A stretch of 37,608 nucleotides of DNA from positions 16,744-54,351 of the forward strand of contig JAKVAQ010000027.1 in NCBI GenBank assembly GCA_022447665.1, given 5' to 3'. This stretch comes from Crocinitomicaceae bacterium. GTDB lineage: Bacteria > Bacteroidota > Bacteroidia > Flavobacteriales_D > Crocinitomicaceae. Below the pieces are notes generated by a model. That model had not been told where the DNA came from, ran no database searches, and was given only the letters and a program-made list of their open reading frames with translations. The position numbers were made by a program, and so were the translations under genes. Shown here piece after piece: positions 21,629 through 35,193 of the stretch (within the stretch, counting starts at the first letter, position 1; each line of letters starts with the position of its first letter).

Positions 21629-22420
21629 TTAATAAGATACCTGAAAAATGGTGGAGTCCTTTACGGTTCCATATACCAATCCATAAGCTTCATTAGTAAA
21701 GTATGTAGGCGGATTGCTATATGCATTATTAGTAGAATTCAATAAAGAGAACTGTTCAAGTTCCCGCATATAACTCCCTACTTCATTGCTAAGAGTATAA
21801 GTAATAACTTTAATTAATGGGTTGGAAACCATAATAGAATACTCATCGGTCAATGTTCTTAAGAAGATATTCTGTGGACCAATAGTTGTCTTTTCTAGGT
21901 TGTTGGAGGTGACATTGATTTTGGTCCAAACGGTATCGGTATCTATTTCAGAAGTATCAGCATAATAGCACTCGTAAATTAAATATTGTGTAACCGAGCT
22001 ATTAAGAGCAAGAGAGGCGTTGGAGAAGCCTGTAGAATAACCACTATCAATGAGTATAGGTGAGGCCATTTTAATATTTCCAGAACTCAAGGTGGCGTTA
22101 TTCTCAACATTTAGGGAATAGTCATCACCTGGAATAAGACCAAAGGGTACAGTTGATTGATAAAGGCCATTTTCGATATGAGTAAACGTATAAATTTCAC
22201 TAGGACCCATTAAGTTAATTGTACCGGTTGTGCAAGATTTGCTTTCGTCTGAATTTATGGTGGTTGCATAACTTAATTCGATTTGCTGGTATTCTATATT
22301 TTCTGAAAGTATTCCATTAATCACCAAAACTTCATCTTCAAATTTATTCGGGTTAAAATCTGCTTCCTCTTGGCACGAAAACAAGAAAATTCCAAAAAGA
22401 TATATGGCCAACTTCTTCAT
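21629..22420 (-). CDS. DUF4249 lipoprotein
   Basis: 263 residues. A lipoprotein signal (MKKLAIYLFGIFLFSCQEE) precedes the DUF4249 opening EDEVLVINGILSENIEYQQIELSYATTI. This family is found next to STN-type TonB receptors in Bacteroidota, where it is thought to be a surface partner of the receptor. The gene overlaps the receptor stop by 1 bp, which supports that partnership. No catalytic motif is visible. The substrate is unknown. Confidence 0.88.
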   Translation of the reverse strand: MKKLAIYLFGIFLFSCQEEADFNPNKFEDEVLVINGILSENIEYQQIELSYATTINSDESKSCTTGTINLMGPSEIYTFTHIENGLYQSTVPFGLIPGDDYSLNVENNATLSSGNIKMASPILIDSGYSTGFSNASLALNSSVTQYLIYECYYADTSEIDTDTVWTKINVTSNNLEKTTIGPQNIFLRTLTDEYSIMVSNPLIKVITYTLSNEVGSYMRELEQFSLLNSTNNAYSNPPTYFTNEAYGLVYGTVKDSTIFQVSY

Positions 22421-24969
22421 TAAAATTTAAAATTTAAAGTGAGTGTTACCAAAGAAGGCGTGAAATCTGAGCTATTGATGGTTAATTCATTAGTTTGAGT
22501 GGTATTTGGAACTAGGAAGTAGACCGCTGGATTGTAGCGATCAAATATATTTTGCCAACTGAGTACTAACCAAAATCTATCTTTTTTCTTTTTTACTCCT
22601 AGTTTTCGAGTAATGGATAGGTCGAATCGTGAATAGTAAGGTAGTCTTAGATTATTTCGTTCTTGAGAATAAAGAGGATAAGCGACACCGTTCAGCGTAA
22701 ATTGTCCGTTTGGAAGTGTTATTGCCGTTGGCGAATGGAGAATAAAATTAGAACTGAGCACCCATTTTTTCGACAAATTTAAATGTTGGTTAAAGTTGAA
22801 ATAATGCGGGCGGCTGAACAAGGTCGGGTAGTATTCATCAAAATTTACACCTGGTGTTTTTTGTAGGGAAAGAATGTATGAGTATGAGGCGCTGGCAGAG
22901 TAATAGGCCTTGTGTTTGAATTTAGCCATGAACTCAAATCCTGCGGCTAAAATATGACCAGGTAAAAGATTATTTTCAGTATTTGAAGTTTGAAAATTAC
23001 CTGGAGAAGCATAGTCGGGTACGTTATGGACATAGCGACCAAATACAGAAGATGACAAACTGAATGGGCCCAGTTTCTTTGAATATCCTCCACTTAATTG
23101 AAAGTTATGTTCAGGTGGTAAAAATGAATTTGAATTGGTCCAAAGTTGAATAGGAACAATAAAATTGGTGAGATCTACCAAGTGGGTTTGTTGTGTGGTC
23201 ACTGTAAAGGCTGCGTCGAATTTTTCAGTAGAACTTTTGTAATAAGAAAGATGAACCCTAGGGTTCAGAAAAAATCTAAAATCGTACAATTTCCCTTTTT
23301 CGTAGACCACTGTAGTTGAGGTATAGTCCTCATTTAGGAAGGTGGTGGTATCCTGTCTGCCCACATGAAAACTCGTTGGTATCCTTAATCCAGCTTTTAA
23401 TTCTAGTTTACGATTCAATCGTTTTTCGTAGGTAAAAAAGTAGCCGGCGTTGATGGCTGTTCTATCTAAAAACACGTTGTTTTGAACTTGATCAATTTTG
23501 TTGAGCGTCGTATTTATCATAACCTCTGCCCCATAATTAACGGTGGCTCCATCATCTAAATAAGAGGTAATATCATACTTAAGTTTGGGAAAAATAACTT
23601 CTTGGGAAATACTATTATTATTGTTTTCGCTGTCTTGATAATCGAATCGAAAACTACTCACAACTACACTTAAATTAGCGAAGTTTTCCGGGTTAAAATT
23701 ATGCGTCCAGTCAATACTTGCAGCTTCATTTCCCCAGTTGTAATTGAAGTTAGTTCCACTCGTAAAGTCATTTCCAAAATAACCGGTTAGGTATATACGA
23801 TTATTGGAATTCAGCTTGAAGTTCAACTTTGCGTTAATGTCCTGATAATTTGGTAAGCTTACCTGGTTTTGGTACAAATAATTCCCAACAATAAATGGCA
23901 TAGTAGACAATCTTCCGGAAAGATAAAAAGATGCTACGTCATTCTTAATAGGTCCCTCTACATTTACTCTTGCCGAGAGAAAACTAATCCCCCCATTTAA
24001 TCCAAATTTCGTTTGATTCCCTTCATTGGTTCTAATTTGAAAAACCGAAGAATTTCTTAGGCCATAACTAGCAGGAATATAGTCCTTGTAAAGCTGGGCT
24101 GATTTAATTGCATCTGTGTTTATTATTGAGGATAATCCAAATAAATGGGTAGGGTGATAAATCGGAATTTCATCTATAAGAATTAGGTTATTGCCCGAGC
24201 CCAAACCCCTTACTCTAAAGTTAGCAGTGCCCCCCACAGCCGGACGCACACCTGGAAAAGACTGCGCGTACTTCGCAATGTCATATTCACCAACTGATGG
24301 AGGTAAATTTTTAACTTCTTCTTTGGTTAATGCGGTTCCACCAATTGCATTCAAATCTTCCTGATCAATTTCGGCGATAAATTCCTCATCATGAATTACT
24401 TCAACAACATTCAAGAGAAGCGTATCCTCGGAAAGGTATACATTCATTACAAGATCGCTGACCATGTTTACATTTACTTGCTTTTTTTGCAGCCCTACTG
24501 AAGATGCGATTAAGTTAGTTTCTCCTGCGGGTAGTTTGATGGCATAATATCCGTATGGATTAGAAACACAGCCAATTTCCAATGATGGAAAATATAATCT
24601 AGCACCAACAATTTCCTCCTTCGATACTTTATTACGAACGTATCCACTGAGGGTGTAAAACTCTCCTGCCGAATTATCTTCGTAAATTGAAACCTGCCCG
24701 CCAATCTCTTTATAGGCTAAGGATGTTCCACTAAAAATTTTGTCTAAAATCTCAGAAACTTTTGCATTCGAAAAGGATTCATTGACCTTCTTACCCGTAC
24801 TATGAAGTACTTTAGAATTGTAAGAGAAGTTAATTCCAGTTGAGCTCCCGAGTTGAACTATACACGCTTGTAGAGATTTGTTTTTGAAGGCAATACTGGT
24901 TGTTCGGTCAAGGACTGTTTGACCAAAACAGGAACTAGAGAATAGGAATAAAAAAAATAGGACCCTCAT
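22420..24969 (-). CDS. TonB-dependent receptor with STN and regulatory-like domains
   Basis: 849 residues. A signal peptide (to about residue 16) is followed by an STN domain (about 24-100: SIAFKNKSLQACIVQL ... ILDKIFSGTSLAY), which in such receptors signals to a FecR protein. A carboxypeptidase-like regulatory domain follows (about 108-185), then the plug (FRVRGLGSGNNLILIDEIPIYHP, about 252-274) and a 22-strand-type barrel ending SLVTLTLNFKF with the expected terminal Phe. It probably imports or senses a surface ligand. It overlaps fecR-like and DUF4249 genes by 1 bp each. Confidence 0.93.
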   Translation of the reverse strand: MRVLFFLFLFSSSCFGQTVLDRTTSIAFKNKSLQACIVQLGSSTGINFSYNSKVLHSTGKKVNESFSNAKVSEILDKIFSGTSLAYKEIGGQVSIYEDNSAGEFYTLSGYVRNKVSKEEIVGARLYFPSLEIGCVSNPYGYYAIKLPAGETNLIASSVGLQKKQVNVNMVSDLVMNVYLSEDTLLLNVVEVIHDEEFIAEIDQEDLNAIGGTALTKEEVKNLPPSVGEYDIAKYAQSFPGVRPAVGGTANFRVRGLGSGNNLILIDEIPIYHPTHLFGLSSIINTDAIKSAQLYKDYIPASYGLRNSSVFQIRTNEGNQTKFGLNGGISFLSARVNVEGPIKNDVASFYLSGRLSTMPFIVGNYLYQNQVSLPNYQDINAKLNFKLNSNNRIYLTGYFGNDFTSGTNFNYNWGNEAASIDWTHNFNPENFANLSVVVSSFRFDYQDSENNNNSISQEVIFPKLKYDITSYLDDGATVNYGAEVMINTTLNKIDQVQNNVFLDRTAINAGYFFTYEKRLNRKLELKAGLRIPTSFHVGRQDTTTFLNEDYTSTTVVYEKGKLYDFRFFLNPRVHLSYYKSSTEKFDAAFTVTTQQTHLVDLTNFIVPIQLWTNSNSFLPPEHNFQLSGGYSKKLGPFSLSSSVFGRYVHNVPDYASPGNFQTSNTENNLLPGHILAAGFEFMAKFKHKAYYSASASYSYILSLQKTPGVNFDEYYPTLFSRPHYFNFNQHLNLSKKWVLSSNFILHSPTAITLPNGQFTLNGVAYPLYSQERNNLRLPYYSRFDLSITRKLGVKKKKDRFWLVLSWQNIFDRYNPAVYFLVPNTTQTNELTINSSDFTPSLVTLTLNFKF

Positions 24970-25895
24970 TAATTGCTTAGCACGATCATTTCTTCTTGAT
25001 AATCAACCTTTAAACGACAAGTTACCACAATTATTTCTACCACATCCTCTAATTTTTGGTTTTCAAAAGTTGCCGTCAATCGAGGAATAGAATCGTAATA
25101 AGTACCTGATGCAAGTGTAATTTCTTTCTCGTAGTATGAGTTTAAATCTTCTAATACATTTTGTATGTACTCATCTTCAAAAACAAAGCTTCCTGTTTTC
25201 CATGAGTTTACATTTTTTTCAGCAGAAATAGGACCCAATACTCCGTTTTCCCCAGCTGTGGTAGATTCACCCTTATTCAATATAACTTCTTCTTCATTTT
25301 TGTCTCTCACCGCCACTCTACCGTGATCAACAGATACTGTGGTGTAATCTGCCTCCACTTCTACGGTAAATCCGGTACCAAGCACTTCAACTTCACCAAA
25401 GGTGTGTCCCACTACAAATGGATGGTTTTCATCTCTATCGACCTCAAAATAAGCGGTGCCTTTCAATTCAAGATTTCGTTCTTCTTCAAAATTATCGAGG
25501 TAAGCAATTTCTGATCCTGCTGACAACCACACTTGAGAACCATCTGGCATAGTATGCTCCATTGCCTCGTTTGATGTATTAGCAATAAGAACTTCACTCG
25601 GATTATTGTTCAATAATAGGAAAGTGGTAACGATTAAAGCAATACTTGCAGCCGCTCCTATCCAATAGAATCGTGAACTAAGCTTCTTAACAGGAGACTC
25701 TAATTGGGCATCAACTTTATTCCATGCATTTTTTGCGCTAAAAGATGGAATATCTATTAAAGGAGTATCCCAAGACTTCTTAAGCAACTCATATTCCGTT
25801 GGATTTTCATCAATCCATTGGCTTAAAGTAGCTTTTTCATCTTCAGAAATATCTCCTGAAAAATGCCTTGCTAGTATGTCATTAATATCTGCCAT
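24969..25895 (-). CDS. FecR-type anti-sigma factor
   Basis: 308 residues. The cytoplasmic N-terminal part (1-75) would bind the sigma factor, one membrane segment lies at about 76-96 (FYWIGAAASIALIVTTFLLL), and a periplasmic FecR domain (MPDGSQVWLSAGSEIAYLDNF ... LKGTAYFEV ... GEVEVLGTGFTVE) is followed by a DUF4974-type C-terminal domain that contacts the receptor STN domain. It lies 32 bp after the sigma gene and overlaps the receptor start. This is the classic transmembrane relay: receptor, FecR, sigma. Confidence 0.94.
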   Translation of the reverse strand: MADINDILARHFSGDISEDEKATLSQWIDENPTEYELLKKSWDTPLIDIPSFSAKNAWNKVDAQLESPVKKLSSRFYWIGAAASIALIVTTFLLLNNNPSEVLIANTSNEAMEHTMPDGSQVWLSAGSEIAYLDNFEEERNLELKGTAYFEVDRDENHPFVVGHTFGEVEVLGTGFTVEVEADYTTVSVDHGRVAVRDKNEEEVILNKGESTTAGENGVLGPISAEKNVNSWKTGSFVFEDEYIQNVLEDLNSYYEKEITLASGTYYDSIPRLTATFENQKLEDVVEIIVVTCRLKVDYQEEMIVLSN

Positions 25896-26563: not shown

Positions 26564-27082
26564 ATGAAACGAAACTTTAAAATCATTCTCTTCTGTTTGC
26601 CGATTCTGGGAATGATGGCATGTGGAAAGAAGAAAGACAAAGTTGTAGATGGTTATAAACCAATCTATGCTGAAGAATCGAATCTTCGATCGGTAGAATT
26701 CACTCAAGGTGAAGCTTTAGTTAATCCAGGTAGAATTTATCTATATCAAGATCTGCTTTTAGTAAACGAGAAAAACGCAGGTGTTCATATTTATGACAAT
26801 TCCGACAACACGAGTCCTATTCAGGTATCTTTTATAAGTATCCCTGGCAACATGGATTTCTCTGTTCGTCAAGGTGTTTTATATGCGGATAATATTACGG
26901 ATATGGTTGCGGTTGATATTTCGAACCCAGCATCTCCTGTATTTCTATCGAGAATAGATAATGTTTTTCCATCGCAGGAATTTCCTGATGAGCGCGGAGC
27001 ATTTGAATGTGTTGATCCCTCGAAAGGACCGGTTATCGGCTGGGAGAAAGCAAGACTAACAAACCCTAAGTGTCACAGATAA
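26564..27082 (+). CDS. LVIVD-repeat lipoprotein, N-terminal propeller half
   Basis: 172 residues. The lipoprotein signal is MKRNFKIILFCLPILGMMAC. Then come LVIVD-type blades: GRIYLYQDLLLVNEKNAGVHIYD, VLYADNITDMVAVDISNPASP. The end (VIGWEKARLTNPKCHR) corresponds to the middle of longer LVIVD lipoproteins of about 400 residues that I know from other Bacteroidota. The next gene, 10 bp later, supplies the remainder with its own lipoprotein signal. It is divergent from the ECF sigma gene. Function is unknown; these propellers are surface or periplasmic binding modules. Confidence 0.82.
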   Translation: MKRNFKIILFCLPILGMMACGKKKDKVVDGYKPIYAEESNLRSVEFTQGEALVNPGRIYLYQDLLLVNEKNAGVHIYDNSDNTSPIQVSFISIPGNMDFSVRQGVLYADNITDMVAVDISNPASPVFLSRIDNVFPSQEFPDERGAFECVDPSKGPVIGWEKARLTNPKCHR

Positions 27083-27092
27083 AATTTGAATT

Positions 27093-27878
27093 ATGAAAAT
27101 GTTTAAAAAATATATAGCTGTCGCGGCAATTGTGCCACTCATGTTTGCCTGCGAAAAAGAAGAGATTACTACTGAGACAGAGGAAAATCCTGTGGTAACT
27201 AAGAGTCAAATTACTACGGGTATCGGAGGTTCAATGGCGCAGTTTACCATATTAGGAGATTACTTATACACTGTAGATTATAAAACGTTGAATGTGTTTC
27301 ACATTGTTAATCCAGATCAACCAACACTGTTAGAAAAGATTGATTTAGGAATTGGAATTGAAACCATTTACCCAGAGAATGATCATTTATTCATTGGTAC
27401 TCAAGATGGTGTAAAAATCTATGATGTAACGAATCCTAGAAGTCCAATGCCAGTATCCGAATTTGATCATGTTACAGCATGTGATCCTGTTATTGCAAAT
27501 GACGAATATGCACTTGCTACTTTAAGAGGAGGAACTGAATGTGGAGGAAATTTAAGTGAGTTAATGGTCTTAGATATAACTGATCTAGCAAATCCATTTG
27601 AAGTAACTGCAACGGCTCTTGAAAACCCTTATGGTTTAGGCTTTGTAGGGGCAAATGAAGATTTAGTGTACATCTGCGATGGATGGGATGGATTGAAAAT
27701 CTATGATATCTCGGAAATAGAAAATCCAGAAATGGTAATGCAATTTTCAGACTTAGAGTCGATAGATGTAATTGAAGAAAATGGAGTATTGGTAGTGCTT
27801 ACGACAATGGGAGTTTATCAGTTCAATGCTGAAAACCCACTAGCACTGGAAGAAATCTCCGTAATACCAACATTATAA
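27093..27878 (+). CDS. LVIVD-repeat lipoprotein, C-terminal propeller half
   Basis: 261 residues. A lipoprotein signal (MKMFKKYIAVAAIVPLMFAC) and an acidic linker (to about residue 42) precede GIGGSMAQFTILGDYLYTVD and four to five LVIVD blades (LNVFHIVNPDQP, VKIYDVTNPRSP, LMVLDITDLANP, LKIYDISEIENP). It starts 10 bp after the first half. GIGGSMAQF is the block that normally follows the linker in single-gene homologues. Confidence 0.85.
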   Translation: MKMFKKYIAVAAIVPLMFACEKEEITTETEENPVVTKSQITTGIGGSMAQFTILGDYLYTVDYKTLNVFHIVNPDQPTLLEKIDLGIGIETIYPENDHLFIGTQDGVKIYDVTNPRSPMPVSEFDHVTACDPVIANDEYALATLRGGTECGGNLSELMVLDITDLANPFEVTATALENPYGLGFVGANEDLVYICDGWDGLKIYDISEIENPEMVMQFSDLESIDVIEENGVLVVLTTMGVYQFNAENPLALEEISVIPTL

Positions 27879-29269: not shown

Positions 29270-32200
29270 ATGAGACTTAGTTCATTCATTCTGTTCATTT
29301 TAACCTTATTTACGTTTCAGGCAAAATCTCAAGAGATTGAAGTAATCACCCAAGAAAGAATTCTAGGTGTAATTACTATTATTTCCTACAGTCCTGATGG
29401 TTCTCTAATCGCCTCTGGTTCTGGTAAGGAGAACTCTGTTAAAATTTGGGATGTAAACTCAGGTAAAATCATAGGTAAATTGGAAGGACATGAAGGTGCA
29501 ACCACCGCTCTATGCTTTAATCATGATGGCACTAAACTATATTCTTCTGCAAAAGATGAGCGTTTAATTCGTTGGGACTTGGTGAACTGGGAATTGGAAG
29601 ATTCGGCAAATGTAGGAACCGCTTTAACCTCTATGGTGGCCTTTGACAATGCTTTTTATGCAGGAGGAAAGAATGGTCATGTCTTAAAATTTGATCCGAA
29701 TAACTTAGCCACTTCGGAGAAGCTTTATTCGCAAGAATTACCTATTACAAAGGTTGATGTTTTTGAAAACACGTTGGTTTCGGGTACATCTGGAGGTCGC
29801 GTTACGGTATTTAATCTTGAAACAAAAGAAGAAGAGCGATCGAAAAAGCTTCATTTCTCCAGAATTAGAGGATTAAGATTTATTGATAACGGAACGCGAT
29901 TAATTACTACAGGTGGAGCGGGTACGGTGCATTTATGGGATGTTAAAGATTTTGATAATAACAAGCATATTCAAGCAAGCGCTCATCCTATAGTAGCATT
30001 TGATGCGAATGATAAGAAGCGATTTTTCGTTGTTGCTTCGGAAAACAAAGAAATCAAGGTTTATGATTTTGATGGAAATCTATTACATGATTATAAAACT
30101 AAAAAAGACGGGTATGATGAGACACGACCAATTGACGCAATTTCAATAAGTCCTGATGGTAGTACGGTGGCAAGTACTGGGTTCAGAAGATTCAAGAGTC
30201 GCAAAAAACAGATGAATGACAATGTTATTCGTGTTTGGGATGTGAATAGAGGGGCTTTGATGCACACCCTTCAAGGAACAGTAAATCCAATTTTTACGTT
30301 CGCTTTTCACCCTACAGAGAATAAATTGGCCACACTAGGAGAAGATAGAGTTGTGACCTTATGGGACTTAGATGTAGCCGAAAAATCTGCCCAGTTCACA
30401 CTAGTAGTTCCTCAAAGAGAAAAGGCGCCAAAGCGAAAAACCAATAAAGGTAAAAAAGCCATGAACGTTGCTAATAAATGGTTGAATGGAGGGAATGTAG
30501 TTGGAGATGCTATCGAAAACACTAAAAAGAGAACAAAAGATGCCGCAGTAGAAAAGATGAAAAGATCGTTCAAGGAAAGAACATTAATTCAGTACTCACA
30601 TAGCGGGAAATATTTAGTCACAAAACTTCCAAAAGATGAGATTAGAAAATACGATTTAACAGGTCTGGAGCCTGAGCATAAGGGACCAGTATGGTCCTAT
30701 CAACGTATTGTGAACGAAGTAGCTTTTTCTCCAGACGATCAATTTATGATGGTATTAGGAGCGGGAGATTCTGCCGTTTCCGTAATTGATATGCAGAAAG
30801 AGGAGTTTGTTCAAAAACTTTCAACCCCTCTGCCGCAAGGGAATCTACAGTACCTGTATGAAGCAAGGTCAGGAGCTTTTTCTCCTGATGGGCAGTATTT
30901 CGCGGTATGTTTTAATAACAGCAAAACGTATGTTTATGAAACAACCAATTGGAGAATGGTTTTCGAAAGCAAATTAGACGGCGACATTAGTTATGCTAGA
31001 GGAACCTTCGTGAATTTTACGGAAGATGGAAAATATATGGTAGTGAACACTCCGATCGGTGCTATGAAATATGAAACAGGATCATTTAGTACCTACAATT
31101 CAAAACCACTTAATGTTAAAGGTTTTTCAGTTCCAATCGATCGCCCATTTGATTACGCCATTACCGTGAGCAAAAAGAAGTTGTATTTCGAAGAAATTAT
31201 ATCAGGGACTGTAGTTGAAAGTATAAATGTTCGCCCTAATGAAATCACTCACATTTCAGTTTCCAAAAATGGTAAAGTGGGAATGACTTTGAAAACGGGA
31301 CAGTTCTTCTTGTTCAATCCAAAAACGGGTGAAGAAGAGGTGCAATTCGTAGGAGAAGGAGAGAATTATATTTTCAAAACATCCGATAATTATTACAAGG
31401 TTTCGAAGGAAGGCTTTGATTTAGTAACCTTCCGAATAGGAAATAAAGCCTACCCTTTTGAGCAGTTTGATGCCGTTTACAATAGACCAGATATAGTTCT
31501 TGAGCGTTTAGGTTGCGAAGATCAAGATTTAATTTCTGCATATAAACGCGCTTATGAAAAGCGGATAAAGAAGCTTGGTTTAACACCGACTAATTCCGTT
31601 AGTTTACGAGATATTCCAACAGCAAAGGTTGAGAATCTTGCCGAGATTCCAGCAGTAACAGAAAAGGAATCAGTACTTGCCAATGTGAAGTTTTCTGATA
31701 ACGTCGGACTTTCTTCGTACAACATCTACATCAACAACGTGCCGCTTTATGGTAAAAAAGGAAAGAGTTTAGAAGGGAAAAAGTCGGCGGAATTTTCTGA
31801 AGAGATTTTCTTGATTTATGGAACAAATAAAATTCAAGTATCGGCACGAAATAACAACGGATTAGAAAGTTTGATGCAAACCTTTTACATTGATAAAACA
31901 GGGGAGGAGCCTAAGCCAAACTTATTGCTTGTAACTATAGGGACGTCTAAATATAAAGATCAAAATTATAACCTGGCTTATGCCGTGAAGGATGCAGAAG
32001 ATCTTACAAAAATTCTGTCTACAAATACAAAAGGGGTTTATAATGAAGTGAAATCTAAGTCACTTTACAATGAAGAAGTTACGGTAGAAAACATTGCTGA
32101 GCTAAAGTCGTTTTTAGAAACTTCAAAACCAGATGATATTGTGATGCTCTTTGTTGCAGGTCATGGTGTGTTGGATGCAGATTTTGACTATTACTTTGGA

Positions 32201-32737
32201 ACGCATGATATTGATTTCTTAAATCCTAAGGCGCGTGGATTGGCGTATGAAAAATTAGAAGGATTATTAGACGGTATTAAGGCGAATAAGAAGATCTTAA
32301 TTATGGACACGTGTCATAGTGGTGAGGTAGATAAAGATGAGGTGATTGAGGCCGAAGTGATTGAAGAGGATGATGGAGATATTGATTTTAGAGCTGCAGG
32401 AATTAATATTGCGAGTAAAAAAGGAAGTGGAGCATCCGCAAGTAAATTGGCTGAGGAGTTATTCAATGACTTAAGAAGAGGTACTGGTAGTACCGTTATT
32501 TCTTCGGCAGGGGGTGCAGAATTTGCCATGGAATCCGACGAATGGAAAAACGGATTGTTTACCTATTGCTTACTGAACGGTCTAAAAAATTACACGGCGG
32601 ATTTAGATAAAGACGGACAAATCATGCTTTCTGAATTACAGGAATACGTGGTGATTAAGGTAGCGGGGCTATCACATGGTCGTCAGGTACCAAATACACG
32701 AATGCAGAACATAGAGCTCGACTTTAGAATTTGGTAG
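29270..32737 (+). CDS. exported WD40-repeat protein with C-terminal caspase-like (C14) protease domain
   Basis: 1155 residues. A signal peptide (MRLSSFILFILTLFTFQAKSQ) sends it across the inner membrane. A first WD40 propeller covers about 30-370 (VKIWDVNSGK, LIRWDL, VHLWDV, VIRVWDV, VVTLWDL). A Lys-rich linker follows at 380-440, then a second, more divergent propeller at about 440-725. An Ig-like domain (about 785-875) leads into a caspase/metacaspase domain (about 883-1155). Catalytic His965 is in FVAGHG and Cys1015 in MDTCHSGE, both intact. An EF-hand-like loop DLDKDGQIMLSE (1111-1122) lies near the C-terminus. The caspase domain has an acidic insert after the Cys (about 1020-1042). A membrane protein gene starts 3 bp later. 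Substrate unknown. Confidence 0.92.
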   Translation: MRLSSFILFILTLFTFQAKSQEIEVITQERILGVITIISYSPDGSLIASGSGKENSVKIWDVNSGKIIGKLEGHEGATTALCFNHDGTKLYSSAKDERLIRWDLVNWELEDSANVGTALTSMVAFDNAFYAGGKNGHVLKFDPNNLATSEKLYSQELPITKVDVFENTLVSGTSGGRVTVFNLETKEEERSKKLHFSRIRGLRFIDNGTRLITTGGAGTVHLWDVKDFDNNKHIQASAHPIVAFDANDKKRFFVVASENKEIKVYDFDGNLLHDYKTKKDGYDETRPIDAISISPDGSTVASTGFRRFKSRKKQMNDNVIRVWDVNRGALMHTLQGTVNPIFTFAFHPTENKLATLGEDRVVTLWDLDVAEKSAQFTLVVPQREKAPKRKTNKGKKAMNVANKWLNGGNVVGDAIENTKKRTKDAAVEKMKRSFKERTLIQYSHSGKYLVTKLPKDEIRKYDLTGLEPEHKGPVWSYQRIVNEVAFSPDDQFMMVLGAGDSAVSVIDMQKEEFVQKLSTPLPQGNLQYLYEARSGAFSPDGQYFAVCFNNSKTYVYETTNWRMVFESKLDGDISYARGTFVNFTEDGKYMVVNTPIGAMKYETGSFSTYNSKPLNVKGFSVPIDRPFDYAITVSKKKLYFEEIISGTVVESINVRPNEITHISVSKNGKVGMTLKTGQFFLFNPKTGEEEVQFVGEGENYIFKTSDNYYKVSKEGFDLVTFRIGNKAYPFEQFDAVYNRPDIVLERLGCEDQDLISAYKRAYEKRIKKLGLTPTNSVSLRDIPTAKVENLAEIPAVTEKESVLANVKFSDNVGLSSYNIYINNVPLYGKKGKSLEGKKSAEFSEEIFLIYGTNKIQVSARNNNGLESLMQTFYIDKTGEEPKPNLLLVTIGTSKYKDQNYNLAYAVKDAEDLTKILSTNTKGVYNEVKSKSLYNEEVTVENIAELKSFLETSKPDDIVMLFVAGHGVLDADFDYYFGTHDIDFLNPKARGLAYEKLEGLLDGIKANKKILIMDTCHSGEVDKDEVIEAEVIEEDDGDIDFRAAGINIASKKGSGASASKLAEELFNDLRRGTGSTVISSAGGAEFAMESDEWKNGLFTYCLLNGLKNYTADLDKDGQIMLSELQEYVVIKVAGLSHGRQVPNTRMQNIELDFRIW

Positions 32738-33438: not shown

Positions 33439-34008
33439 GTGCGAGTATTCTGTACCTTTTTCATATTCCTAACACTTAACGCCTTTGGTCAAAAGGGCTA
33501 TCCGAATGATACCCTGTGGTATGATGAAGATGGACGATTAAAGGATGAGTTTGTGGTACAAGGAATTTGGTTCAAATTAGGAAGAGGAGATTTAGTTACT
33601 TATGACGATACGTCAAAGTACTTTTCGGTTGAGGATGTAGATATAATTTATGCCAGATTGGATAGTCTAGTTGATTTGATTAAGGATGATTCATGTGTCT
33701 GGGAAATTCAAGTACATACGGATTGTCGAGGAAGTAAAACTATGAGTAGAAGACCGTCTCATAGTAGAGCCGAGTCGATTTTTAACTACTTTGTCTCACA
33801 AGGCGTATCATCTCACAAATTGGTACCAAAAGGATACGGAGAAAATGTTCCTAGAAGGGTTTCCGAAGCTGGTAAGACAGTCGTTCTATCTTGTGAATAC
33901 ATCACATCATTTCGAGAAAAAGATTTGGAAAAATATGAACGACTTCATCAGCTAAACCGAAGGGTTGTATTCAAAAGATTGAGTAATTTCTACGTCCCAA
34001 AAAACTAG
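33439..34008 (+). CDS. OmpA-like peptidoglycan-binding protein
   Basis: 189 residues from a GTG start; the nearby ATG is in another frame. Signal peptide to about residue 17 (FIFLTLNAFGQ). A single OmpA C-terminal domain covers about 60-182. Asp95 in HTDCRGS and Arg110 in SHSRAES have the 15-residue spacing of the diaminopimelate-binding pair in OmpA. KLVPKGYGENVP and LNRRVVF complete the fold. No barrel or lipobox is present, so it would be a soluble periplasmic protein resting on peptidoglycan. Confidence 0.85.
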   Translation: MRVFCTFFIFLTLNAFGQKGYPNDTLWYDEDGRLKDEFVVQGIWFKLGRGDLVTYDDTSKYFSVEDVDIIYARLDSLVDLIKDDSCVWEIQVHTDCRGSKTMSRRPSHSRAESIFNYFVSQGVSSHKLVPKGYGENVPRRVSEAGKTVVLSCEYITSFREKDLEKYERLHQLNRRVVFKRLSNFYVPKN

Positions 34009-34029: not shown

Positions 34030-35193
34030 ATGCGAAATACAATTCTTTTTCTGGCACTTTTAATTGGGGTTTCAGCTTCTGCTCAAAAGCTTGGTAAACT
34101 CATTGAAAAAAATGACCCTGATAAACTCCAGGCCTTTATTGATAAGGGGGGAGACCTAAATCAAGAAATTCAAACAGAGTATAGAGATGACGATTCTATA
34201 TATTACACGCATCCCATAATTTTTGCCACAGTCTCAGAAGCTACCGAGTCCCTAAAAACGTTGATTAAGAATAAGGATAAAATTGACAACTATTCAGAGT
34301 ATATCTCTAAAGCATTTGTACTATCCTTATCTAGAAAAGACCCTGAAATTGCAGATATATTATTTGCTGAAGGTCCGGATGTTAACGTTGAATGCGAACC
34401 CTGTCATCATGCCAGCGCAATAATGATTGCAGCAAGCACGGGAAAACAAGATTGGTATTTTAAGTTAAAACCAATGAGTAATCTTCAACACGTTACCCCT
34501 GGAAACCAAAACTTATTACACTACGCTGCTTCGTCACCAAATGAAAACATCACCAAAGACGTAATCAAAATAGAAGGGCTGGACATTAACATGGAAAACA
34601 CAGAGGAAGTCACTCCTTTGGCGTTTGCAATGATGAATATATACCAACCAAACCTGTTCAATGAAATGATTGGTCATGGAGCTGACCCAATGGCTACGAA
34701 GGACCTAGTCGAGTTTGCTATTGAAGGCAATAATTTAGATGCCCTTATATATGCTGATACCAATGATTTGCCTATTCCACTTTGGGATTGGAATGATTAC
34801 AGTTCATCATACTTACTTCAATATTGTGTCTTTATGCATGATGGACCTGATGGAGGATTGATTTACAGTTCAGAACAAGATGAATTTGTAGATTATCTCA
34901 TGTGGATGTATATTAATTCAGCGAAGGAGCTTGAGAATACCGAAGAAATGTGGGACCCAGTCTACAACGCGAATACTTTTTATAACCTTATTGATCTATC
35001 ATTAGAGTTTGACAACTTACCTTTATTAGATACTTATTTTAGACTTGTAGCTGAGGTTCAAGAAGTAGAGAATGCCGTGTTAGTATTTCCTAAGAAGTAC
35101 TTCAAATATGCAGTTAAAGCGTGGGGAGATATGGAAATAGGCTCACTCTTAGAGAAATACAGCATCAATACAGATTACTCCTATTGGTACTAA
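34030..35193 (+). CDS. exported ankyrin-repeat protein
   Basis: 387 residues with a signal peptide (MRNTILFLALLIGVSASAQ). Degenerate ankyrin repeats follow: KLIEKNDPDKLQAFIDKGGDLN, ILFAEGPDVNVE, NLLHYAASSPNENITKDVI, VTPLAFAMMNIY, EMIGHGADPMA. The C-terminal 150 residues are helical and unrecognised. It begins 21 bp after the OmpA-like gene and may share its transcript. Ankyrin repeats mediate protein contacts; the partner is unknown. Confidence 0.82.
   Translation: MRNTILFLALLIGVSASAQKLGKLIEKNDPDKLQAFIDKGGDLNQEIQTEYRDDDSIYYTHPIIFATVSEATESLKTLIKNKDKIDNYSEYISKAFVLSLSRKDPEIADILFAEGPDVNVECEPCHHASAIMIAASTGKQDWYFKLKPMSNLQHVTPGNQNLLHYAASSPNENITKDVIKIEGLDINMENTEEVTPLAFAMMNIYQPNLFNEMIGHGADPMATKDLVEFAIEGNNLDALIYADTNDLPIPLWDWNDYSSSYLLQYCVFMHDGPDGGLIYSSEQDEFVDYLMWMYINSAKELENTEEMWDPVYNANTFYNLIDLSLEFDNLPLLDTYFRLVAEVQEVENAVLVFPKKYFKYAVKAWGDMEIGSLLEKYSINTDYSYWY

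Follow-up and report, generated by a model that had tools for sequence, protein, structure and literature searches.

A putative exported WD40-caspase family of Bacteroidota with a conserved linker arginine and an EF-hand-type loop

The stretch of DNA analysed here (the window, 37,608 nucleotides of contig JAKVAQ010000027.1 from a Crocinitomicaceae bacterium) contains a gene for a 1155-residue protein in which N-terminal signal features are followed by two WD40-type beta-propellers, an immunoglobulin (Ig)-like beta sandwich and a C-terminal caspase domain of family C14; caspases are proteases known mainly for their part in animal cell death. The catalytic dyad is intact, two predicted S1 aspartates are conserved, a single arginine is kept in an acidic linker and an EF-hand-type loop lies near the C-terminus. 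Judging from sequence and structural models, our favoured explanation, with a probability of roughly 0.55, is that the protein belongs to a family of Arg-specific caspase zymogens that reside in the periplasm and whose recognition parts can be exchanged. The linker arginine and the EF-hand-type loop, both family-wide, are the useful additions made here.

In the mechanism that we propose, the zymogen would be exported by Sec and signal peptidase I would take off residues 1-20. The two propellers would serve as the exchangeable recognition part, whereas a helical spacer with an NRPD motif, the Ig-like domain and the caspase domain would make up the conserved output module. The caspase would cleave after Arg or Lys, its S1 pocket being lined by D908 and D1013, and activation would lead to a self-cut of the acidic linker after Arg1041, yielding p20-like and p10-like halves. 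The EF-hand-type loop, in the p10-like half, would bind the calcium available outside the cytosol, which would either stabilize that half or be required for activity.

Results

Architecture of the window protein

The gene is a single open reading frame (ORF) with an ATG start, on the forward strand. A signal peptide, two propellers, a sandwich and a caspase had been proposed in a reading of the sequence alone, and this domain anatomy was recovered with Pfam and AlphaFold2, the propellers both as Pfam WD40 families and as modelled strands. The WD40 model PF00400 scored 109.2 bits on the ORF (cut-off 27) and other Pfam propeller models also matched (lowest E 4.4e-47); Peptidase_C14 (PF00656) covers residues 888-1145 (50.6 bits, cut-off 21.4, E 2.7e-13). 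The full-length AlphaFold2 model, based on 77 sequences, has a predicted TM-score (pTM) of 0.80 and a mean predicted local distance difference test (pLDDT) score of 86.2, and the C-terminal 456 residues modelled alone gave a pTM of 0.86 and a pLDDT of 88.1. The N-terminal half is built as a helix (3-15), propeller strands (24-377), a low-confidence linker and further propeller strands (439-728), and the C-terminal half as helices (730-768), a sandwich (784-876) and the caspase domain (885-1155). Counting strands, rather than assigning blades, gives about eight blades for propeller 1 and about seven for propeller 2. In the spacer, N738, R739, P740 and D741 are each kept in 75-77 of the 77 alignment rows. 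The features of the gene, in window coordinates, are:

29270-32737, +, whole gene, exported WD40-Ig-caspase (ORF and Pfam; range includes the stop codon)
29270-29329, +, predicted signal peptide, residues 1-20 (MRLSSFILFILTLFTFQAKS), cut expected before Gln21, no Cys
29339-30400, +, beta-propeller 1, residues 24-377 (Pfam WD40 families, AlphaFold2 strands)
30401-30583, +, basic, low-confidence inter-propeller linker, residues 378-438 (sequence not conserved)
30584-31453, +, beta-propeller 2, residues 439-728 (AlphaFold2 strands)
31457-31573, +, helical spacer with NRPD motif, residues 730-768 (AlphaFold2, alignment)
31619-31897, +, Ig-like beta sandwich, residues 784-876 (AlphaFold2 strands, weak Pfam matches)
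31922-32734, +, caspase (C14) domain, residues 885-1155 (Pfam, fold comparison)
32162-32164, +, catalytic His965 (113/113 modules)
32312-32314, +, catalytic Cys1015 (113/113 modules)
32324-32389, +, acidic linker, residues 1019-1040, opening with a conserved E-x-D-K-D/E-E/D block
32390-32392, +, Arg1041, candidate self-cleavage site (conservation in alignments, column scan)
32600-32635, +, EF-hand-type loop, residues 1111-1122 (DLDKDGQIMLSE) (conservation, AlphaFold2 helices)

The Ig-like domain carries the weakest of these domain labels. The beta sandwich itself is present in the AlphaFold2 model, but no Pfam Big family passes its cut-off, Big_7 reaching 14.8 bits on the window's domain (cut-off 24.1). 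Among 21 members, the Pfam matches included Glucodextran_B (5), Cadherin-like (3), Y_Y_Y (3) and Big_7 (2), all of them weak, and against solved structures the best E was only 0.99. A second cut site in the inter-propeller linker was considered and rejected, as this linker is basic in most of 20 orthologues yet not conserved.

Catalytic site and predicted specificity

Column counts given below refer to 113 modules, obtained by merging 138 modules (the window's included) at 90% identity; six members of a separate subfamily were left out of them, as was L156, which has an internal stop. The named and unnamed loci that supplied the modules overlap. A 61-member count omitted the duplicate L042, the two L044 fragments and the truncated L097. 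His965 and Cys1015 had been picked out from the sequence as the catalytic pair; their positions were correct and both are invariant, as are D908 and D1013, the predicted S1 aspartates (each 113/113). In profile alignments of the module, D908 and D1013 fall on Asp residues of AtMC4 (E 0.0015) and of yeast Mca1 (E 0.21), positions that line the S1 pocket for a basic residue in MALT1 and TbMCA2 (PMC4357240). From sequence, P1 specificity is predicted to be for Arg or Lys rather than Asp; Arg, Lys and Asp peptides had been suggested earlier as substrates.

In the VIA comparison, the C-terminal model matched AtMC4 (Z 22.4, root-mean-square deviation (rmsd) 2.7, 216 aligned), GSU0716 (Z 22.1, rmsd 2.6, 214 aligned), MCA9 (Z 21.8, rmsd 2.8, 220 aligned), MALT1 (Z 20.7, rmsd 3.1, 210 aligned) and caspases (Z about 19-20). 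By structure, it can be aligned right through to its C-terminal end with complete caspase and metacaspase domains. The NCBIfam model NF047832 (EACC1-associated caspase) gave 81.9 bits, under its cut-off of 140. Gingipain (C25) and clostripain (C11) were absent from the Pfam matches listed, no deciding profile search having been made, and were not among the 50 VIA rows listed, which excludes nothing.

A kept arginine in a variable acidic linker

The acidic insert noticed earlier after the catalytic Cys is real, with D or E at 12 of the 22 residues 1019-1040. Across members, the segment 1019-1064 is variable and acidic (median length 47, with a median of 11 D/E and 5 K/R) and opens with a block in which E1019 is kept in 112, D1021 in 97, K1022 in 96, D/E1023 in 107 and E/D1024 in 109 of the 113 modules. 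Beyond this block, a column scan found F1040-R1041 to be the most conserved pair of the linker. Arg1041 is kept in 112/113 (the remaining module has Lys with Arg adjacent), no other Arg occurs between Gly1018 and 1041 in 107/113, and the residue after Arg1041 is A, S, N, G or T in 108/113. A single kept Arg in a variable linker suggests self-cleavage: a zymogen that processes itself would be expected to look like this, a predicted Arg-cutting protease whose own linker keeps one Arg. The orthocaspase MaOC1 requires self-processing for activity (PMC5756287).

The EF-hand-type loop and calcium

The loop at residues 1111-1122, described earlier as EF-hand-like, proved to be conserved: D at position 1 is found in 108, D/N at position 3 in 111, D/N at position 5 in 107 and E at position 12 in 110 of the 113 modules. 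Position 8 is I or V in 108/113, and the motif D-x-[DNS]-x-[DNS]-x6-E lies within the last 70 residues of 106/113. Because the ligand positions are conserved while the non-ligand positions 2, 4, 7 and 9 vary, the loop appears to be more than chance. Structure prediction, which had been proposed as a check, puts the loop between helices 1096-1107 and 1120-1135 (pLDDT about 92), and the EF-hand side-chain ligand pattern (positions 1, 3, 5 and 12, between two helices) is present.

EF-type loops are found outside the family in 5 of 14 readable C14 ORFs of other Bacteroidota, a rough figure (the DxC pattern could be read at just 14 of 29 loci, some of these perhaps hold distant family members, and the loop of L206 is unplaced relative to the p10 motif). 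One alphaproteobacterial relative also has such a loop, and the small C14 ORFs of about 285 amino acids at L187, L190 and L197 have none. A loop of this kind is not unheard of, as a survey that includes archaeal orthocaspases lists an EF-hand motif in 7 of them and Big_7 in 15 (PMC6426788).

The sequence-only reading had invoked calcium as for metacaspases, and here it needs correction, for the four-aspartate calcium site of metacaspases is not preserved in full. The residues corresponding to D189 and D190 are Tyr993 (Y in 99 and F in 10 of the 113 modules) and Glu994 (E in 48 and D in 30; acidic in 78/113), and the one corresponding to D220, nine residues after the Asp of DxC, is Lys1022 (K 96/113). 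Asp973 (D in 74 and N in 31 of the 113) is a possible counterpart of D173, as judged by eye alone. These correspondences were read through AtMC4 (E 0.0015) and Mca1 (E 0.21), not from TbMCA2 itself. As the metacaspase site is not whole, calcium, if it acts, probably does so via the EF-hand-type loop.

Several observations weigh against a self-cutting, calcium-responsive zymogen. The Arg1041 count is alignment-dependent, with 59/62 in alignment A3 (the other three have an adjoining Arg), and the linker around this residue has a pLDDT of only 50-61 in the full-length model. A structural role for Arg1041 is possible, because FR1041 aligns with a YR of the Geobacter protein GSU0716 (3bij). In CgMCA-I, cleavage persisted after the basic residues of the cleavage sites had been replaced (PMC9622860). 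For the loop, seven of the 113 members lack the motif and retain the dyad, so the loop is not strictly needed. On the C-terminal module, Pfam EF-hand_1 reached 21.4 bits (E 1.6e-4), under its cut-off of 25.4. Furthermore, position 9 of the window's loop is Met, a place at which the PROSITE EF-hand pattern wants a polar or small residue.

A possible, if clearly less probable, explanation is that both loop and linker Arg are structural, in an ordinary constitutive exported protease whose propellers bring the substrate and whose calcium only stabilizes the fold. Calcium-binding loops often have a purely structural role; the EF-type loops in 5/14 of the other readable Bacteroidota ORFs and in the alphaproteobacterial relative, the seven members without the motif, and the YR of GSU0716 would all fit such a protease. 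It accounts less well for an otherwise variable acidic linker that keeps one Arg matching the predicted specificity, and the clan is usually under zymogen or ligand control (PMC4357240).

Export and location

Signal peptides were called with a heuristic of our own, not SignalP, that looks for a hydrophobic core, no acid before the cut, and a small residue followed by Gln. Such a Gln-type signal was found in 102 of 116 distinct members, versus 186 of 682 other ORFs (200 amino acids or more) from the same loci, which supports the export proposed from the sequence alone. When only sequences with some hydrophobic core are counted, the figures are 102/111 and 186/404. The remaining members have an A-x-A-type site (6), a hydrophobic core only (3) or nothing (5), some with truncated or misread starts. 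Loci L042, L044, L050, L097 and L156 and ORFs open at the 5' end were left out of the signal count, and the separate subfamily was included. The rule is loose, which counts against the call: 404 of the 682 control ORFs show some hydrophobic N-terminal core. In Bacteroidetes, Gln after the cut marks most signal peptidase I substrates (PMC5837995).

Of the five Pfam matches found in the C-terminal 456 residues with E no greater than 10, none was the Por_Secre_tail of the type IX system; the chain ends in the caspase domain, and two other window proteins do have this tail. With a signal that has no Cys, and no type IX sorting domain, a soluble periplasmic location is most likely.

The earlier reading presented an exported caspase as a surprise, and this was overstated. 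A 2012 survey reported WD40-caspases (WD40 in 73 of 671 sequences) and noted that N-terminal helices in caspase homologues may be signal peptides (PMC3501461), and clan CD has released or exported members in clostripain (PMC4357240) and the gingipains (PMC5053529). Thus, export of caspase homologues is by itself not new.

It is improbable that the N-terminal helix stays uncleaved and that the protein is cytosolic or anchored in the inner membrane. AlphaFold2 does build a helix at 3-15 and the signal call is heuristic, but 102 of 116 members place Gln directly after a small residue at the expected cut (cf. PMC5837995), and the neighbouring ankyrin and OmpA genes also start with signal-like segments, by eye.

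A conserved module behind exchangeable front parts

Orthologues align from near the N-terminus through residue 1155. Most non-orthologous copies, however, align only from about residue 660-700 on (with short WD40 matches before), the shared stretch running from the last part of propeller 2 through the NRPD spacer and the Ig-like domain to the caspase. The window's own genome holds six long C14 ORFs and one broken copy. Of six other copies scanned, four have C14 as their sole Pfam domain at E 1e-5. In a FastTree phylogeny built from 67 modules, one clade of 11 tips (support 0.997) unites the window protein with its ten orthologues, whereas four other own-genome copies sit in other clades beside copies from other genomes (support 0.69 to 1.0 at the nodes shown); the sixth (L039) belongs to the separate subfamily, which served as outgroup. 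The paralogues are therefore old. The Ig-caspase module is conserved and the front parts differ between paralogues. This modularity, in which the C-terminal module is conserved and the N-termini vary, is compatible with propellers acting as sensors; nothing else found here points to sensing by the front part.

A search with the full-length protein gave matches at E 1e-3 in 32 of the 59 relative genomes, part of them via WD40 repeats only; the C-terminal module was found at E 1e-20 or better in 14/59 and an orthologue over most of its length in 10/59 (the G008 orthologue is truncated at the end of a contig and the G037 one is in two pieces). Culturable species with an orthologue are Crocinitomix catalasitica (L116) and C. 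algicola (L138). In an even draw across the phylum, the module was found at E 1e-30 in 14 of 296 genomes, own included, most matches spanning only about the first 320 of 456 positions, and any C14 domain in 31 of 118 genomes, own included. The module is thus rare across the phylum Bacteroidota and patchily spread. Of 493 pattern stretches from a scan of genome_contigs (84,980 species), 454 were confirmed; the top 80 were retained as 78 loci, which are mostly titled Crocinitomicaceae, Flavobacteriales and other Bacteroidetes, with some Chlorobi and other labels. Family members at L153 and L169 lie on contigs labelled Thermoplasmatota and Cloacimonadota; as L153 has a Gln-type signal peptide, these are likely mis-binned Bacteroidota.

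The best plasmid match is a 1472-residue 'caspase family protein' of a Sulfitobacter plasmid (31.6% identity over 97% of the caspase-domain query). By eye, this relative (L214 65-4480, -) shows an HRNRPDIV spacer before its Ig-like and caspase parts, a signal-like N-terminus, a linker Arg and an EF-type loop.

The six members of the separate WD40-caspase subfamily keep an Arg in a much shorter linker, together with a partial loop. One of them (L105 2461-4770, -) has Leu instead of the catalytic His and a changed motif behind the Cys, and is perhaps a pseudo-enzyme. That the whole family is a conserved non-proteolytic scaffold, using the caspase fold for binding as pseudo-orthocaspases do, is highly improbable, for although L105 and known prokaryotic pseudo-variants offer precedents (PMC6426788), His, Cys and both S1 aspartates are invariant in the family proper and pseudo-variants make up only 10 of 1078 Bacteroidetes sequences in that survey.

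Two further copies in the same genome are recorded here. A second caspase paralogue (L040 5889-9158) shares contig C20 with the window's caspase and precedes it by about 37 kb, and a small ORF near it (L003 782-1336, -) has the look of a Y1-type transposase, by eye. A decayed copy (L044 8851-9455, contig C34) consists of two short ORFs that lie in different frames, one matching residues 1060-1155 of the window protein at 58% identity and the other residues 957-1051 at 64%.

Gene neighbourhood

Directly downstream of the caspase gene lie genes for a 178-residue protein (no Pfam match), a short exported OmpA-domain protein with a GTG start (window 33439-34008) and an exported ankyrin-repeat protein:

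34030-35193, +, exported ankyrin-repeat protein, possible partner (Pfam, profile matches)

Downstream of the orthologue, an exported ankyrin gene is present in the window, L047, L048 (= L113), L107 and L114, with other ORFs intervening in the window and L107; in L067 (= L164) an ankyrin relative sits immediately upstream of a paralogue. The ankyrin model was built from the window, L047 and L048 genes, so that L107, L114 and L067 are the independent matches. By BLAST at E 1e-4, the gene was found at 3 of 11 loci (the window and ten orthologue loci). A conserved operon partnership was rejected as only weak, most orthologue loci being without the ankyrin gene, which is thus no more than a lead. 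Four of the 11 orthologue loci (L046-L049) lie behind a run of coenzyme A-transferase and amine-oxidase genes, a run not found in the window.

Five orthologues from Fluviicola, Brumimicrobium and Flavobacteriales (L120, L121, L123, L124 and L131) share, directly downstream, a 179-190-residue membrane-type protein and an 800-829-residue protein with the look of a TonB receptor, by eye. Elsewhere in the window, two adjoining ORFs (26564-27878; 172 and 261 amino acids) carry tandem LVIVD propeller repeats and are possibly one split gene, and a FecR gene stands beside a TonB-plug receptor gene (22420-25895). Weak relatives of this receptor near caspase orthologues in L046 and L053 are probably due to chance.

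A role in anti-phage defence was also considered. The caspase model of PADLOC scored 22.3 bits (E 1.6e-5), and the WD40 part drew a match to a HEAT-ARM model; this reading was dropped because of the export signal and because no defence-type name occurs among eight neighbours, as judged by Pfam only.

Discussion

The nearest known proteins are the WD40 caspase homologues of the 2012 survey (PMC3501461), which likewise join C14 to WD40 propellers, in some cases with a signal-like N-terminal helix, and are numerous within single genomes of some Bacteroidetes (28 copies in Haliscomenobacter hydrossis). As far as the accessible part of that survey goes, the present family differs in combining an export signal, an Ig-like domain, the NRPD spacer, a linker Arg and an EF-type loop. 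In open-access titles and abstract openings, we found no exported Ig-caspase family with an EF loop and a linker Arg.

With metacaspases (AtMC4, Mca1, TbMCA2), the window family shares the fold and the S1 aspartates, but it does not keep all calcium-site aspartates and its domain architecture is different. GSU0716 has the caspase fold and the YR aligned with FR1041, but its chain of 285 residues leaves no room for propellers. MALT1 is similar in having an Ig-like domain adjoining the caspase and in Arg specificity (predicted here). However, Ig3 follows the caspase domain in solved MALT1 chains, whereas the window's Ig-like domain precedes it; MALT1 is also not known to have propellers or to be exported. 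In Apaf-1 and the apoptosome, too, twin propellers are tied to caspase control. There the caspase is on a separate chain and an NB-ARC ATPase is present, whereas the window protein has propellers and caspase in one chain. Apaf-1 was rank 16 in Foldseek for the full-length model, among many twin-propeller proteins, and a specific likeness to it was rejected as unspecific.

MaOC1 of Microcystis resembles the window protein in basic P1 preference (predicted here) and self-processing (expected here). In the accessible part of the review, orthocaspases are described as p20-only with calcium-independent activation, for which the missing p10 half is given as the reason, and the sole orthocaspase biochemically characterized as of 2017 self-processed without added activator (PMC5756287). 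The window protein, in contrast, has an export signal and a C-terminal half that aligns with the ends of full caspase domains and carries an EF-type loop. With its conserved calcium-type loop and kept candidate self-cleavage Arg, the exported family suggests the reverse of these calcium-independent orthocaspases and offers a direct test case.

A broader reading, which we regard as doubtful, goes beyond exported zymogens to exported one-chain 'apoptosomes', in which swapped propeller sensors would be coupled to a conserved calcium-gated, Arg-specific caspase self-cut at a single Arg, in several Bacteroidota lineages and on at least one alphaproteobacterial plasmid. If this were true, each paralogue would couple an envelope event of its own to a common type of proteolytic output.

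The roles of bacterial caspases are largely unknown, and the linker Arg and the EF-type loop give a short list of activation tests. If the favoured explanation is right, caspase-type signalling would sit outside the bacterial cytosol.

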